64,000 nucleotides of DNA. Origin: Armatimonadota bacterium. Lineage in GTDB: Bacteria; Armatimonadota; Fimbriimonadia; Fimbriimonadales; Fimbriimonadaceae. The notes under the pieces were generated by a model. The model saw only the letters and a list, made by a program, of their open reading frames with translations. It did not search any database and had not been told where the DNA came from. A program made the translations under genes and the position numbers. Location: contig JACRPN010000008.1 in the NCBI GenBank assembly GCA_016223145.1, positions 298,103-362,102 of the forward strand, written 5' to 3'. This document shows positions 8,659-53,964 of this stretch, in pieces; within the stretch, counting starts at the first letter, position 1; each line of letters begins with the position of its first letter.

Positions 8659-8931
8659 CAGCAGAAGGACGGCGGCCACGGCGCGAAGATTCGGCAGATT
8701 GTGCTGCGGCCGCTCTGTTGGCGTGGAAGGGTGCAAGGGAGGTGAGAATGTTGAGGGCCGTGAGGATGATGAGGACGGTGAGGATGGAAGGGTGGACGGA
8801 TGGACGATTGGAGGTGTGGAAGGATGATGAGGACCGTGAGGATAGTTGGCCGTTCACAGTTAGCGATTCGGGACGGAGCGTCGGGTTTACCCGGCCTCGA
8901 GCGCCTGGCATTGATGCCCAAGCGGCCTGGA
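8659..8931. repeat. Purine-rich imperfect repeats
   Basis: Upstream of the metalloprotease the plus strand carries diverged repeats of GAGGATGATGAGGAC and GTGAGGATGG (about 8740-8850). They resemble the purine-rich runs at 48544-48660. Frames open through this stretch on the minus strand give only low-complexity protein, so no gene is called. Confidence 0.6.
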
Positions 8932-9325
8932 GTCTGCACCTGCAGGCTTTTAGAAGGCGGGAATAGGTTAGGGTGGTGAGAATGGTGAGCGTGAGCTCGT
9001 AGCCGCAGGCTCCGTGCCTGCGGCCTGGAGTCTGCACTTGCTGGCTTTGAGAAGGCGTGAACAGGTGAGGGTGGTGAGAATGGTGAGCGCGAGCTCGTAG
9101 CCGCAGGCTCCGTGCCTGCGTCCACGGGGTCTGCACCTGCTGGCTTCTAGAAGGCGGGAATAGGTTAGGGTGGTGAGAATGGTGAGCGTGAGCTCGTAGC
9201 CGCAGGCTCCGTGCCTGCGTCCTCGGGGTCTGCACCTGCTGGCTTTGAGAAGGCGTGAACAGGTGAGGGTGGTGAGAATGGTGAGCGTGAGCTCGTAGCA
9301 GCAGGCTCCGTGCCTGCGTCCCTAT
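8932..9325. repeat. Four tandem 98-99 bp units in an ABAB pattern
   Basis: Units start at 8932, 9030, 9129 and 9228, each with GTCTGCAC at its head. Each ends with GAGCTCGTAGCCGCAGGCT and a small palindrome, GCAGGC-TCCGT-GCCTGC. Units 1 and 3 share GCGGGAATAGGTTAGGG; units 2 and 4 share GCGTGAACAGGTGAGGG. This points to a duplicated 198 bp pair. Open frames across it are low complexity and are not called as genes. Confidence 0.93.
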
Positions 9326-10576: not shown

Positions 10577-11329
10577 CTCAACGTCGCGCAATCCGGACCC
10601 CTGTTGCAGGTTTCACTGAACCGGCCTGAGGTTCGGAACGCTTTCAACGACGAGCTGATTGCCGCTCTGAGCGAGGTTTTTTTGGACTTACCCGCGGGGG
10701 TTCGGTGCGTCGTGCTCTCGGGCGAGGGCAAAGCGTTTTCGGCAGGCGGCGACCTTGAGTGGATGCGCCGGGCGGCGGCGTATTCCGAGGAGCAAAATGT
10801 TCAGAACGCTCTGAAGCTGGCGCGGCTGTTTGAGGCCATCGTGAGCTGCCCGGCGGTGGTGATCGCCAAAGTGCACGGCGCGGCTTTTGGCGGAGGATGC
10901 GGGCTTGTAGCGGCGGCAGACGTGGCCGTCTGCGAGGCTGAAACCAAGTTCGCATTTTCGGAAGTGCGATTGGGGCTATTGCCGGCCACCATTTCGTCGT
11001 TCGTGATTCCGAAGATTGGCGCAGGCCATGCCCGGGCGCTCTTTTCGACCGGCGAGGCCTTTGGGTCCGAAAGGGCACTTAGGATCGGTCTCGTACACGA
11101 GGTTGCCGGAGCCGATTCGCTCCATTCAGCCGTGGAAGCCAAGGTCCAGGCGGTGCTCGCATCCGGTCCGGACGCTTGCGCCAGGGCCAAGCGCATCGCC
11201 GCCGAACCGCCGCTTGCCATCGAGGCTGCGGCTATGCTTCTAGCGGAGGCTCGCGCGTCCGACGAGGGACGGGAAGGTGTCGCGGCGTTTCTGGAGAAGC
11301 GGCCTGCGAGGTGGGCGCCAAAGGCATGA
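10574..11329 (+). CDS. liuC: Enoyl-CoA hydratase family, likely methylglutaconyl-CoA hydratase
   Basis: A 251-residue crotonase-fold protein. The oxyanion-hole segments are visible: AFSAGGDLEWMRR near 56 and HGAAFGGGCGLVAAADVAV near 96-115. The GDLEWMR/Y.EEQN signature and FAFSEVRLGLLPATIS match methylglutaconyl-CoA hydratases of leucine breakdown rather than general enoyl-CoA hydratases. The next gene, which overlaps by ATGA, is a biotin carboxylase of the methylcrotonyl-CoA carboxylase type, the step just before in the same pathway. Acetoacetate, the end product, could be used by the acetoacetyl-CoA synthetase at 57422. Confidence 0.83.
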   Translation: MLNVAQSGPLLQVSLNRPEVRNAFNDELIAALSEVFLDLPAGVRCVVLSGEGKAFSAGGDLEWMRRAAAYSEEQNVQNALKLARLFEAIVSCPAVVIAKVHGAAFGGGCGLVAAADVAVCEAETKFAFSEVRLGLLPATISSFVIPKIGAGHARALFSTGEAFGSERALRIGLVHEVAGADSLHSAVEAKVQAVLASGPDACARAKRIAAEPPLAIEAAAMLLAEARASDEGREGVAAFLEKRPARWAPKA

Positions 11330-13026
11330 TCCGTAAGCTGCTCATCGCCAACCGGGGAGAGATCGCCGTGCGCATCATGCGGACGGCCCGGACCATGGGC
11401 GTTCGCACCGTTGCCGTCTTCAGCGACGCCGATGCCGAGAGCCTTCACGCCAAGCTCGCTGATGAACGCGAGGGCCTGGGGGCGCCGGACCCGGTCGAGA
11501 GCTATCTGAACATCGAGAAGATCGTCGGGGCCGCCAAGGCGACGGGCGCCGATGCCATCCATCCGGGCTATGGGTTTTTGGCCGAAAACGCCGACTTTGC
11601 CGATGCCTGCGCGGAGGCCGGTCTGACGTTTGTCGGGCCGACCGGGGCAGCAATGCGAAAGCTCGGCGCAAAGATCGAGGCCAAGCAGCTTGCGGTCTCA
11701 GCGGGAGTTCCCGTCGTGCCCGGCTTTTTCGAGAAGGGAGCGCCAGCCGAGAGACTCAAGGCTGAGGCCAAGAAGATTGGATTCCCTGTGATGCTGAAGG
11801 CTTCGGCCGGAGGTGGCGGGCGAGGGATGCGAGTCGTCCGTGATGAGTCCTCCTTCTTCTCCCACCTGGAGACGGCTTCCTCCGAGGCTCTGAACGCCTT
11901 CGGCGATGGCGCGATGATGGTGGAGAAGCTCATCGAGAGGCCCCGTCACGTCGAGGTTCAGATTCTGGCGGACCACCATGGCCGCGTCGCAGCGCTATAC
12001 GAGCGAGAGTGCTCGATCCAGCGACGGCATCAAAAACTGATCGAAGAAGCGCCGTGGGGAGGTGATGCGCGATGGGCTATGCGCGATGGAAGACAGGAAG
12101 CGACCTCGCCACTTCGGGGAGAGGTTGGTGAACGCAGTGAACCGGGTGAGGGGGCAATGGAAGGCGATGCGCGATGGGCGATGGGCGATGGGGACAGACA
12201 ATCCACCTCGCCCCTTGTGGGAGAGGTCCGGCTCCACCCCGAAGGGGAAGGAAGTGAGCGCAGTGAACCGGGTGAGGGCGTGGCTTGGCCCGACCTCCGA
12301 GAAGCAGCCGTCCGCCTAGCGCAGGCCGCAGGCTACACCAACGCCGGCACGGTCGAGTTCATCGTCGACGACGCCACGGGCCGGTTCTACTTCCTTGAGG
12401 TAAATGCCCGGCTTCAGGTCGAGCACCCTGTCACCGAGCTCATCACCGGGCTCGACCTTGTGGCGTGGCAGCTCAAGATCGCCTCAGGAGAGGCCCTCGA
12501 CCTTCCGTCACCCCTGATGAACGGCGAACGAACAGGCATCTGCGGCCACGCGATTGAGGCACGGATCGTCGCCGAAGATCCCGCGAACGGCTGGCTGCCC
12601 TCGATTGGCCGGATCGTGGGTTGGGCCGAGCCGAAGGGTCCGGGCATCCGGGTGGACACGGGCTTCGGCGCGGGGCTGGAAGTCTCCCGCTACTACGATT
12701 CGCTTCTTGCTAAGGTGATCTTGCATGGGGCCAACCGCGAAGAAGCCCTCTTGCGGATGGAATCGGCCCTAATGGACTTCCATATCCTTGGCGTGAGGAC
12801 CAACATCGAGTTCTTGCTGGCGGTGCTCCGACACCCGGACTTCCGAGCCGGGCAGTTCGACACAGGGTTCTTGGGGCGAGAATTCGAGGGTTGGGCCCCG
12901 AGTGATTCCTTCCCGAATGCGCTGGCAGCGCTCTGCAGCGCCCCGCCGACTGGGTCCACAACCGGCAAGCCGGCTGCTGCGATCCCGTCGGTATGGCAGA
13001 GCGCAGATACCTTTCGTAACGTCTGA
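11326..13026 (+). CDS. Biotin carboxylase subunit, repeat-interrupted, without biotin carrier domain
   Basis: A 566-residue protein. The biotin carboxylase fold is clear: IANRGEIAVRI at the start, HPGYGFLAEN, the Gly-rich ATP-grasp loop ASAGGGGRGMR, ECSIQRRHQK, NARLQVEHPVTE and GHAIEARIVAEDP. Residues about 244-322 are a foreign insert made of two palindromic repeats plus short GCGATGG-type repeats, replacing the usual short 'SPALTPELR' loop. The protein stops at WQSADTFRNV, where methylcrotonyl-CoA carboxylase alpha subunits go on to their linker and biotinyl domains; neither is present. Pairing with liuC suggests a liuD-type gene that has lost its end. A free-standing carboxylase using a carrier elsewhere is the other reading. 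Confidence 0.85.
   Translation: MIRKLLIANRGEIAVRIMRTARTMGVRTVAVFSDADAESLHAKLADEREGLGAPDPVESYLNIEKIVGAAKATGADAIHPGYGFLAENADFADACAEAGLTFVGPTGAAMRKLGAKIEAKQLAVSAGVPVVPGFFEKGAPAERLKAEAKKIGFPVMLKASAGGGGRGMRVVRDESSFFSHLETASSEALNAFGDGAMMVEKLIERPRHVEVQILADHHGRVAALYERECSIQRRHQKLIEEAPWGGDARWAMRDGRQEATSPLRGEVGERSEPGEGAMEGDARWAMGDGDRQSTSPLVGEVRLHPEGEGSERSEPGEGVAWPDLREAAVRLAQAAGYTNAGTVEFIVDDATGRFYFLEVNARLQVEHPVTELITGLDLVAWQLKIASGEALDLPSPLMNGERTGICGHAIEARIVAEDPANGWLPSIGRIVGWAEPKGPGIRVDTGFGAGLEVSRYYDSLLAKVILHGANREEALLRMESALMDFHILGVRTNIEFLLAVLRHPDFRAGQFDTGFLGREFEGWAPSDSFPNALAALCSAPPTGSTTGKPAAAIPSVWQSADTFRNV
12055..12291. repeat. Palindromic repeat cluster inserted in frame in the biotin carboxylase gene
   Basis: Two copies of the CCCCTCACCCGGTTC...CTCTCCCC...GGCGAGG family lie in reverse orientation at 12104-12154 and 12206-12279. 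They are separated and preceded by GATGCGCGATGGG / GGGCGATGG short repeats. The whole stretch stays open and adds about 79 residues (DARWAMRDG, GEVGERSEPGEG, repeated) to the enzyme. Confidence 0.9.
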
Positions 13027-17004: not shown

Positions 17005-17477
17005 GGGAGTTGTCGGACTTATTTTGGCGGATGGGGTTCTAGGATGAGGACGGATGACGGCTTGGGCCGATTCGGGGATGGCGCATGGACGAAGGGACCG
17101 TCTCCCTCCCCAACCCCTCCCTTCCCGACGAGCCGGGACTCGGAAGCATTTTCGATGCGCAAAAACATGGGAGGGACTCCGGAAGCGCCAATCGCGTCCG
17201 CGGGTTTTTTCCCCCTCACCCCTGTTCGCTGCGCTCCCCGATAGTCGGGGCAAGCACTAGCCCTCTCCCACGAGGGGCGAGGGGGTTCCTGACATCAAAC
17301 CTCAGACCTCAGACCTCAGACCTTCTTCCCCCTCATCCCTTCAACGCTTCACTCACCTTCCCTCCGGCGCCCCGTCTCCCCGTTTCTCCGAACCTCCCTT
17401 TCACCCCTCACGTATCTCTCACGTCCCTTCGCCCCATTTCCCTCGTCCAAATACCAGTAAGGAGCTAAACTCGCACC
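17005..17477. repeat. Intergenic cluster of dispersed repeats
   Basis: Three repeat types lie side by side in this 470-base gap. At 17099-17173 is a CTCCCTCCCC...CCGGGACTCGGAAGCA...GGGAGGG element, with a near copy at 42417-42497. At 17211-17285 is a member of the CCCCTCACCC...GGCGAGG palindrome family. At 17299-17323 is a three-fold heptamer, CTCAGAC. No gene was found. The gap separates divergent M61 peptidase and MlaD genes. Confidence 0.85.
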
Positions 17478-19487: not shown

Positions 19488-20552
19488 ATGCTGATCACGC
19501 TCGTTTCGGCCGCTTTGGTTTTATATGGGGCTAATAGCGCCGGACTGTCTGAAAAGCAGGCGGTTCGTGTTACCCCCCTCACCCGGTTCGCTGCGCTCAC
19601 CGACCTCTCCCCGATGGGGCGAGGGGGAGAGGTTGCCTCAGTCAAGCTTCGGCGGATCTTTGCCAAGGGTGAGAAGTTCGAGTACGAGTTCAAGTCGAGC
19701 CTCTTGACCGAAGTTCGGGACTTGGTGATCACCACCTTCATGCCCGAAAAGATCGTCTACGAGTACAAGTTCGGCTATGAGATCACCGCCCTCAAGCCCG
19801 ACGGTTTCTGCGAACTGAAGTACAAGCGTCCCTCGATCACGATCACCGAGCCCGGCGAAGACGGCCCCGAGAAGACGGTTGAGAAGCTCGACCAGGACGT
19901 CTTGATCACGCTTTCGCCGGTCAACGACATGGTGTCCATCAAGGACCAGTCTCCCCCGAAGAAGGGGGGCAAGGACGGCGGCGGGAGCCTTAGGTCCCAC
20001 CGACTCGTTGGCCTTCCCCGTGCTCAGGTGGACGTCATCGGCCAGTTCGTCGGTGAACTCCACAGGCTGGCGGCATTCGTCGGTTCGATGGATTCCTCGC
20101 TGGACTTCTCGCCGAGGCTCCCTTTTGAAGAGGAAGTCGCGCCGGGTGCTACCTGGAAGCGAACGGTCGGCTATTCGCCCCAGAAGTCGAGCTCGGACTC
20201 GAAGATGGTGGTTCAGCGGCTGGACTACACCTACACCTACGTGGGGATGGTGGAGTCTGGGGGCAAGCAGGTGCAGCGGGTCACGGCAGACATGAGCCTT
20301 GACAGCGACCTCGCCCAGTTCATCCACGATACGTTCAGGCTCAAGCCGGCGCAGACCGGGCTTAAGGCTATTCCGCTCAAGCTCAAGGTCCACGTGGACT
20401 ACGACCTTGACCCGAAGACGATGCGCACGATCGTTGCCAACGCCACCTCGGAGGGTGGGTTCAGCGTTACGATTTCGGCCTCGGCGGACCCGGTAATCGA
20501 GGAGATCTTTCACGGCACCTGCAAGCTGAAGGCGGCGGGTCCGGCGAAGTAG
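19488..20552 (+). CDS. Secreted protein of unknown function, with translated repeat after the signal peptide
   Basis: A 354-residue protein. MLITLVSAALVLYGANSA is a plausible signal peptide. Residues about 27-48 (RVTPLTRFAALTDLSPMGRG) are encoded by a copy of the palindromic repeat at 19573-19627. After it begins a conserved-looking body (FAKGEKFEYEFKSSLL) with many strands. The body has the feel of the large secreted families of this phylum that measure reduced 'mean signal' or bind lipids, but no named family was recognised. AAGAAG before the ATG may serve as ribosome site. Transcribed the same way as rplI, 55 bases after it. Confidence 0.7.
   Translation: MLITLVSAALVLYGANSAGLSEKQAVRVTPLTRFAALTDLSPMGRGGEVASVKLRRIFAKGEKFEYEFKSSLLTEVRDLVITTFMPEKIVYEYKFGYEITALKPDGFCELKYKRPSITITEPGEDGPEKTVEKLDQDVLITLSPVNDMVSIKDQSPPKKGGKDGGGSLRSHRLVGLPRAQVDVIGQFVGELHRLAAFVGSMDSSLDFSPRLPFEEEVAPGATWKRTVGYSPQKSSSDSKMVVQRLDYTYTYVGMVESGGKQVQRVTADMSLDSDLAQFIHDTFRLKPAQTGLKAIPLKLKVHVDYDLDPKTMRTIVANATSEGGFSVTISASADPVIEEIFHGTCKLKAAGPAK
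19573..19627. repeat. Palindromic repeat copy inside a coding region
   Basis: CCCCCCTCACCCGGTTCGC, then TGCGCTCACCGACCTCTCC and CCGATGGGGCGAGGGGG. It matches the copy at 12104-12154 (reversed) over nearly its full length. It is read in frame just after a signal peptide. Confidence 0.9.
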
Positions 20553-32999: not shown

Positions 33000-33126
33000 T
33001 ATCTTGCCTCCGAGGTGAGGTGTTGTGCCCGCCGGCTGTCGCGCTTCGCGCTCCTGCCCCTCACCCGATTCGCTTCGCTCACCAGCCTCTCCCCCCTCGA
33101 GCAAGGTGGATGCCTGCGCTTCGTCC
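33000..33126. repeat. Intergenic palindromic repeat copy
   Basis: A copy of the CCCCTCACCC-GATTCGCTTCGCTCACC-AGCCTCTCCCC family sits at 33057-33110, between two minus-strand genes. Its right arm is degenerate. No gene. Confidence 0.75.
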
Positions 33127-39157: not shown

Positions 39158-40315
39158 TCACCCATACACCTCCCTCTCCAGCCTCCTTGCTTCAGACTCC
39201 GTCGCGCACTCGACCATCAGATACATCCCCTCGGGGCCGAGGGCGTCGAGCAGGGGCAGCACCTCGTCCGGTTTGACCCAGATCGCCTGCACCGACTTTC
39301 CGGCCGCCCTGATGCGGCGGTACAACTCGTACCACTGGGGCGAGCCGCCACCAGGGAACTGCGGCTGCGGCGTCCACTCCACCGCGTTCAGCGATTCGAT
39401 TTCCAGCACGGCATCGAGGATAGGGAAGCAGTCGGTGCCGTCGAGGTGGAACATCGAGTAGTCGAGCCAGTCGCATTGGCGGGATAGCGAGGGAAGGACG
39501 AACTTGCGGAAGTGCTCGGGGGAGATCATGGAGCCCGCGTCGCACTGGACCTTAGCGGTCTTCCCCGGTCCCCAAAGGCTGAAGGCGGCGAACACCATCC
39601 CTCCCGATTCCCCCTCCTCCTGCCCTGGAGGAGGAGGGGGTAGGGGGTGGAGGTTCTGAGATTGCGGATTGCGGATTGCGGATTGCGGATTCGAGAGCCT
39701 GATCCGCTCATAGATCAGGTCGAACGTCTCGAAGAACGCCTGGTTGATCGCCTCGATCTGCGCAAGGACCCACTCGGGACGGTCTATCGAGTCGATCAGG
39801 AGTTCCATTGGGTCGCGGAGCTGCGCCAGCGTGTCCCAGTTCTCGATGAGGTCCGGCATCCCGACCGGCAGCCAGCCTCCAAGGGTCTGAGAAACTCGAA
39901 TTGCCTCGTCAATCAGGGCGAGATGTGTCTGCCACCATTGGTTGGCCGGGTTAAAGCGGACCGGCGGCGTGGCGTCGGGGTCCTGGATGCACGGGTTGTA
40001 CCAAACCGTGGTCTCTGCGAACCCGGGTTCGCAGCCGAGGAAGAGCCCGAGCGAGCCGGGGCCGATCATCGTGTCGAGGTAGGGAAAGGCTGCGCCCCCG
40101 TGGTAGGTGCGGGAGAGCCAATGGAGCGATTGCTGAACGCGGAAGGTTGGGTCGATCCACCGTTGTTCGAGGTCTGCCGGAGGTGCCGGCTCAGGGACTT
40201 CCAGCCAAGGCTCCTCTGCGGGAGCCGTAATCCACAGGGCGCAGCCCTTGCCGAGCCACCAGTCCAGGAGCCGAGACCGGGCGATGCCCCAGTCGTTCTG
40301 GCGCATTGTGTCCAC
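39158..40315 (-). CDS. URO-D-like protein with an in-frame repeat insert
   Basis: A 385-residue protein of the uroporphyrinogen decarboxylase / methylcobamide methyltransferase superfamily (PGSLGLFLG, GMPDLIENWDTLAQLRDP, WGPGKTAKVQCDAGSMISPEHFRKFVLPSL, DYSMFHLDGTDCFPILDAVL). These proteins often move methyl groups to or from corrinoids. Residues about 208-244 are a foreign insert: a seven-base repeat read as NPQSAIR three times, then a pyrimidine/purine palindrome read as LHPLPPPPPGQEEGE. The insert lies between a helix and the next strand (GGMVFAAFSLWG). The start is 40315 or the ATG at 40306. Confidence 0.78.
   Translation of the reverse strand: MDTMRQNDWGIARSRLLDWWLGKGCALWITAPAEEPWLEVPEPAPPADLEQRWIDPTFRVQQSLHWLSRTYHGGAAFPYLDTMIGPGSLGLFLGCEPGFAETTVWYNPCIQDPDATPPVRFNPANQWWQTHLALIDEAIRVSQTLGGWLPVGMPDLIENWDTLAQLRDPMELLIDSIDRPEWVLAQIEAINQAFFETFDLIYERIRLSNPQSAIRNPQSQNLHPLPPPPPGQEEGESGGMVFAAFSLWGPGKTAKVQCDAGSMISPEHFRKFVLPSLSRQCDWLDYSMFHLDGTDCFPILDAVLEIESLNAVEWTPQPQFPGGGSPQWYELYRRIRAAGKSVQAIWVKPDEVLPLLDALGPEGMYLMVECATESEARRLEREVYG
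39584..39694. repeat. Heptamer repeat and palindrome translated within the URO-D-like gene
   Basis: ATTGCGG repeated about 4.6 times (39660-39692) next to CCCCCTCCTCC-TGCCCT-GGAGGAGGAGGGGG (39613-39643), an 11 bp or longer hairpin. The same heptamer occurs in intergenic DNA at 38888 and 59977. Confidence 0.88.
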
Positions 40316-42031: not shown

Positions 42032-42532
42032 GATCGCCTCCGGGATTCAGTCTATCCCTTGGGCGCTCTTCCGAGCCTTAGCCGGCAAGCCACCCTCCGG
42101 GTGGGGATCCCCCCAGCTCGGAACACAGGGTGCCTCCACCCTTTACGGGTGGCGTCATAGTGGTCTCCGCCCGGCTCGCGGTTCTTGAGTATGGTCGGAT
42201 GTGCCGTGCTCTGATGGGCTCAGTAGGGCCTGCTGCACAGTTGCATCCTACTTTCCCGACAGGAACCGACTCCACGAACACCACCCTAAAGGGTGGAGGC
42301 ACCCGCGACTTCTATCACTCGGTGCAGACTCTAGCCCTGGGATCGACATGCCTTTGAACCAAAGGTCAATTACTCACCACACACAGTCGAAAAATGATGA
42401 TCGAGAGCGAGCAAGGCCTCCCTCCCCCGACCCCTCCCTTCCCGACTTCGCCGGGACTCGGAAGCAGTTTCGACTCCCTCAAAACAAAGGGAGGGGAGCC
42501 CACGAGCTGCCCGAAATCCACTATCCTAGGCC
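42032..42532. repeat. 500-base gap with inverted and dispersed repeats
   Basis: Holds an inverted pair: GGGTGCCTCCACCCTTTACG at 42129-42148 and its reverse complement ending CTAAAGGGTGGAGGCACCC at 42285-42303. Each arm is itself a small hairpin. Further right, 42417-42497 is a second copy of the CTCCCTCCCC...CCGGGACTCGGAAGCA...GGGAGGG element of 17099-17173. No gene was found. Confidence 0.85.
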
Positions 42533-53708: not shown

Positions 53709-53964
53709 GTCAACCCATTGTGACGCACGTCTCTTTCTTGTGGGTTCCCCAAGGCCAAAGCCACTTCGTACGGGCGGCGCCTGCCTCTGTCACACGGTTC
53801 GCCGAAGGTCACCGACCTCTCCTTCAAGGGAAGACGTGGTTTTTCCGAGCCTGAGTGCCCTGGCCATTTGGGACGGCAGTTTGATCCTGAGCGTTGGGCC
53901 AATGTGGTCCTAAATGGGCACAATCCAGGAGGGTACGACCTCCTGCAGCACGAAGCAAAGCAGT
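53709..53964. repeat. Spacer with degenerate palindromic repeat
   Basis: A weak copy of the CCCCTCACCCGGTTCGC family lies at about 53790-53836 (CACACGGTTCGCC, CACCGACCTCTCC). It separates the divergent cyclase-TPR and oxidoreductase genes. Otherwise no gene. Confidence 0.6.

Follow-up and report, generated by a model that had tools for sequence, protein, structure and literature searches.

A biotin carboxylase gene of an Armatimonadota bacterium carries an in-frame insert that is built from two kinds of dispersed repeat, a palindromic hairpin element and heptanucleotide tandem repeats. The gene lies in a window of 64,000 nucleotides (the whole stretch of DNA analysed), which belongs to a draft genome (G000) of 3.87 Mb in 23 contigs that is 97% complete. 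The insert is very probably explained by the spread of both repeat families through this genome and by the tolerance of their sequences, in frame, as a translated and unstructured loop.

Results

The open reading frame of the biotin carboxylase encodes 566 aa free of stops. Pfam recognises Biotin_carb_N, CPSase_L_D2 (ATP-grasp) split in two stretches, and Biotin_carb_C in its protein, the nearest named relatives of which are from Fimbriimonadaceae and Chthonomonas-labelled MAGs. A MAFFT alignment sets this protein beside 17 orthologues from Armatimonadota, 489-531 aa long, which share the layout QRRHQKxxEEAP, followed by about 10-12 residues and the helix LWxxMREAA. The first-pass annotation had proposed such an alignment to fix the borders of the insert. 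They fall between EEAP (ending at 12054) and WPDLREA (starting at 12286), which gives 231 nt or 77 codons (Table 1). The claim that palindromes and heptamers form an in-frame insertion in a conserved ATP-grasp enzyme is borne out by this alignment and by the stop-free frame. Its size needs correction: the gain in frame stands, but the figure of about 79 added residues was a gross one, and the net gain over the relatives is about 65 residues.

Table 1. Coordinates of the biotin carboxylase gene, its insert and the repeat copies in the window.
Feature	Position	Strand	Evidence or remark
Biotin carboxylase (AccC/LiuD-type BC subunit)	11326-13026	+	Pfam and AlphaFold2 structure match
In-frame insert, 77 codons replacing about 10-12	12055-12285	+	Alignment with 17 orthologues and 2 congeners; low pLDDT
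Unit 1 GCGATGN heptamer run	12057-12089	+	Direct repeat with 12159-12191, 88%, spacing 102
Unit 1 54-nt hairpin element, frame TSPLRGEVGERSEPGEG	12101-12154	+	Covariance model R1, 69.7 bits
Unit 2 GCGATGG heptamer run	12159-12191	+	Direct repeat with unit 1 run
Unit 2 78-nt long hairpin variant	12203-12280	+	Model R1, 39.0 bits; 24-nt internal difference from unit 1
Intergenic copy upstream of peptidase M61 gene	17212-17282	-	Family match
Antisense copy in gene 19488-20552 (+)	19575-19624	-	Between signal-peptide-like N-terminus and mature part
Intergenic copy	33057-33095	-	Family match
GATTGCG heptamer array with a different palindrome (LPPPPPGQEEGE), second in-frame repeat insert	39600-39691	-	Gene 39158-40315
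Intergenic copy between divergent genes	53790-53834	-	Family match

The insert is absent from the site in 16 of the 17 orthologues and in both congeners compared (G001 and G002). An ancient conserved loop as its source was ruled out, since related species have an empty site. The same loop holds a different insert, with TCGGAGC and TTCATCC heptamers, in another Fimbriimonadaceae genome (L054). Among the matches listed, and judged by eye, the gap between the matched carboxylase halves is short in the family genomes except in G000 and G061. The active-site motifs flanking the insert are invariant in the alignment, in agreement with the earlier reading that the catalytic motifs are kept on both sides. 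The AlphaFold2 model, calculated from an alignment of 32 sequences, has a confident fold (mean pLDDT 82), and its top structural matches are biotin carboxylases. Disorder is confined to the insert and the C-terminus, with pLDDT below 50 at residues 250-294 and 301-313 and at the C-terminus. A second biotin carboxylase, 52% identical across the N-terminal half, is encoded at G000:C9:90861, so the window gene is not the sole carboxylase of the genome.

The insert consists of two units, each with a GCGATGN heptamer run and a hairpin element of 54 or 78 nt, in register at 102 bp. The 102-bp spacing holds for the heptamers and for the element's 5' half, and the 3' half recurs at 126 bp. Such spacings fit one duplication, in tandem and in frame, of a unit of 34 codons, together with the 24-nt difference. 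Several long variants of the element, with differing middles, occur elsewhere.

The hairpin element has the consensus CCACCTCGCCCCTTnGGGGAGAGGTCGGTGAACGnAGTGAACCGGGTGAGGGGG. Positions 12104-12154 and 19574-19624 of the window are 90% identical over 51 nt. In the whole genome there are 49 DNA matches at E<=1e-3 and at least 150 covariance-model matches, a similarity that is far beyond chance. Two hairpins in the element are supported by compensatory changes, for example A-T and G-C at one pair in 25 and 18 copies, respectively, and G-C and C-G at another. Paired cells amount to 94.7%, and double changes were found in 26 cells against 8.5 in shuffles, none of 500 shuffles reaching the observed value. 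The family is short, palindromic, of high copy number (at least 150) and mostly extragenic, as are REPs in the broad sense. In Rfam, no family scored above the gathering score, and one chance lncRNA match was seen below the threshold. With the covariance model, matches were patchily distributed over 39 of 85 family genomes. Similar elements occur in Bradyrhizobium (L068 and L071 genomes) and Pelagibacterium (L040 genome), with about 60-120 model matches each, which indicates that elements of such architecture cross phyla. One Bradyrhizobium copy has a longer, perfect palindrome as its hairpin 2.

Within the window, the copies that the first-pass annotation had placed between genes at 17211, 33057 and about 53790 were all recovered as intergenic. 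The one that it had put inside another gene at 19573 lies in frame in the gene 19488-20552, whose N-terminus and mature part are joined directly, without the copy, in the congeners. The product of the gene 39158-40315 (385 aa, minus strand) has no Pfam match, and its LPPPPPGQEEGE palindrome peptide recurs in L185 and partly in L202. Two other repeats were observed. A 98-bp repeat forms four tandem copies of 91-96% identity at 8929-9322, and an inverted repeat (GGGTGCCTCCACCCTTTACGG) lies at 42128-42304. The Y1 transposase genes at C1:124614 and C13:122681 are flanked by a palindrome similar to the latter, so that GGGTGCCTCCACCCTTTACGG looks like a true RAYT-linked REP of this genome.

Around the copies, 1.28 Mb of the genome was scanned; these are stretches chosen by their copies, and densities there differ in kind from genome averages. 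They hold 133 hairpin clusters. By a coding-potential scan, about 20 of these lie mid-ORF and in frame in conserved genes; the 21 in-gene calls include two that are doubtful as listed (L131, and a minus-strand frame at window position 19575, where the gene is on the plus strand). In a cruder coding map, 29 clusters lie inside coding sequence and 10 overlap it. The comparison of copies in genes and between genes, with their frames, which had been proposed at the outset, thus gives 39 of 133 clusters touching coding sequence, against about 83% of the DNA being coding, and a single frame for the sense copies. Hairpin copies are strongly depleted in genes.

The decorated proteins include alanyl-tRNA synthetase (AlaRS), Era, XerC, UbiE, MazG, IspH, a HemW-like protein and a TIGR01777 oxidoreductase. 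M28 and S9 peptidases, DUF5107 and GH2 proteins, a GlcF-like protein and a glycosyltransferase are also decorated, as are a metallo-beta-lactamase/rhodanese protein, a DnaE-like polymerase, a YprB-like RNase H and an N-terminal extension of DXS. Empty sites were found in congeners for the biotin carboxylase, AlaRS, Era, XerC, UbiE, MazG, IspH, HemW and the 19488 gene, and the inserts measure 19-67 residues across seven genes compared with congeners. When searched with joined sequences, AlaRS, Era, IspH, UbiE and MazG were single-copy in the genome, and the decorated proteins should therefore be functional. The DnaE-like polymerase (L125, 9514-14121) has several separate repeat-derived inserts, with two palindromes near the N-terminus and heptamer runs at about 12170 and 12326.

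Sense-oriented copies are read in the frame TSPxxGEVGERSEPGEG in 10 of 10 genes, for which the probability by chance is about 2e-4. Of 82 isolated copies, 59 have this frame open, against 53 and 27 for the other two frames. Antisense copies use the frame with PSPGS in about 7 of 10 cases, though all three frames are mostly open. The kept frames encode hydrophilic peptides with much Gly, Pro and Ser. The use of one sense frame in all 10 genes points to selection on the translated product, and this preference is the best evidence that the inserts are probably translated. Excision of the segment from the transcript or from the protein is conceivable, but nothing points to it.

Tandem Repeats Finder detected 208 period-7 clusters in the same 1.28 Mb, of which a lenient rule places 44 inside coding ORFs. 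Many of the latter are clearly repeat-derived, such as RSEVRGPRS in AlaRS and IRNPQSEIRN in DXS, and judging from these sequences heptamer arrays appear to be inserted in frame in tens of genes. It follows directly from the sequence that a stop-free heptamer run encodes an identical 7-residue cycle in all three frames, and hence only the total length of the run is constrained. On a crude coding map, heptamer arrays lay near 40% of the palindrome clusters in non-coding DNA, against 15% of non-coding positions picked at random, which is only suggestive of a proximity of heptamers and palindromes in non-coding DNA.

Discussion

We propose that the insert is composed of the palindromic element with its two hairpins (54 nt) and of heptanucleotide tandem repeats, both of which would have spread through the genome. 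The majority of copies lie between genes. A copy inside a gene would survive where the frame is kept, no stop arises, the peptide is soluble and disordered, and the loop is tolerant. In the biotin carboxylase, a unit of heptamers and palindrome would have inserted into the loop that follows EEAP, with a probable later duplication in frame (102 bp). The segment would be translated as an unstructured, nearly neutral loop and be tolerated by the enzyme. The 82 isolated copies, whose ends are placed only approximately, have no excess of matching flanks, and neither a target duplication nor a consistent junction was seen among them. Because of this result, and because no Y1 transposase gene is adjacent, our claim concerns the identity and the persistence of the inserts and not their movement.

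The palindrome might be a REP that is moved in trans by the Y1 (RAYT/TnpA-REP) transposases of this genome, as in REP-RAYT/REPIN systems. Hairpins of single-stranded DNA are a known substrate of this transposase class, and 12-14 Y1_Tnp matches are present in the genome. In our survey of the hairpin element and Y1_Tnp over 85 family genomes, the copy number correlated with the number of Y1_Tnp (Spearman 0.40, uncorrected for genome size or kinship). However, in REP-RAYT systems the palindrome flanks its cognate Y1 gene, whereas at 13 Y1 places no copy of our family was nearer than about 1.9 kb and other palindromes flanked several of the Y1 genes. Moreover, four of the 11 genomes with at least 20 copies (G007, G017, G058 and G073) gave no Y1_Tnp match at E<=1e-3. 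Mobilisation by a RAYT was rejected as a requirement on this neighbourhood and on the presence across the 85 genomes, the weak correlation remaining. A RAYT does not look necessary for the movement of the palindrome, and we regard its action in trans as unlikely. It is possible, if somewhat doubtful, that transposase-independent seeding, for example heptamer slippage and subsequent recombination or repair synthesis from one repeat tract to another, keeps adding disordered segments to Fimbriimonadaceae housekeeping proteins at a rate sufficient for the same carboxylase loop to be hit twice in the family.

The paired structure kept among the copies, and the double hit on this loop within the family, might also indicate selection on the segments for a role of their own, for instance in regulating the enzyme or in forming an RNA hairpin in the mRNA. 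We consider this very unlikely, as unrelated enzymes have the identical peptide in places that do not correspond, no orthologue keeps it, and intergenic copies keep the pairing too. That the inserts mark decaying, non-functional genes is a highly improbable reading: although the biotin carboxylase has a paralogue and the inserts of HemW and the DnaE-like polymerase are large, the frames are open, catalytic residues are conserved on both sides, the single-copy essential AlaRS and Era are decorated, and one frame is preferred. The genome is a draft, and contigs C4, C11 and C22 end within copies, so that repeats could have been wrongly joined inside genes during assembly or binning. This reading is hardly credible and was rejected, because, unlike mis-joins, the inserts in about 20 conserved genes keep the frame and are contig-internal, and because an independent repeat insert occupies the same loop in L054. 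The spread and in-frame tolerance of the two repeat families remains our explanation.

In-frame palindromes are already known. Rickettsia palindromic elements (RPE), 105-146 bp long, were first described from 19 reading frames, and the palindrome-decorated enzyme of the Rickettsia conorii gmk gene is made and active, as reviewed in PMC2229807. As with our family, RPE and the palindromes of Wolbachia and Methanocaldococcus are dispersed, both between genes and in frame in conserved housekeeping genes. RPE differ from the window element (54-nt core, 78-nt long variant) in their length and their obligate intracellular hosts, and no heptamer composites are described for them in the text consulted. 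The first-pass annotation had named RPE as the closest known case. They are a fair analogue, though not the sole one: according to PMC3733652, in-frame intragenic REPs occur in Opitutus terrae, R. conorii, Thauera, Xanthomonas and others, free-living hosts included. Their targets include DnaE2 and tRNA synthetases, and most groups encode 20-30 residues, some 43-82.

These GTAG/CGTC REPs are likewise palindromes of REP size in frame in conserved genes. They have a tag (also TGTC/CCTC) beside an 8-9 bp stem, AT-led for CGTC, and a CCA tail, as far as the same text describes them (PMC3733652). Compared by this description, our consensus has CCTC and CCA but no GTAG/CGTC tag and no AT-led 8-9 bp stem, and our inserts, unlike those REPs as described there, are mixed with heptamer arrays. 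The ERIC, Correia and Yersinia palindromic MITEs (100-170 bp), for which PMC2229807 gives in-frame gene fusions, are also small non-autonomous repeats translated in genes, but no terminal-repeat or target-duplication signature was found in the window family. The G-rich heptamers of Xanthomonas and Nostoc are similarly dispersed heptanucleotide tandem repeats (PMC4692102), whereas in this genome many are attached to palindromes and appear to be translated as parts of conserved enzymes. The first Fimbriimonas genome paper (PMC4072686) makes no use of the word palindrome. We found no report of in-frame palindrome insertion in Armatimonadota in the literature searched, as had been supposed for the phylum. 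What is new is the phylum, the composites with heptamers, an element with no RAYT neighbour and apparently no GTAG/CGTC tag, and the wide range of essential single-copy genes that are hit here and have empty sites in members of the genus.

These results add a free-living phylum to in-frame repeat insertion, in parallel to what has chiefly been described from Rickettsia. Within one genus, AlaRS, Era, IspH, UbiE and MazG with and without inserts form a natural series. This series allows tests of how proteins gain segments from repeat DNA, of which frames and loops are tolerant, and of how REP-like palindromes without an obvious transposase are moved.
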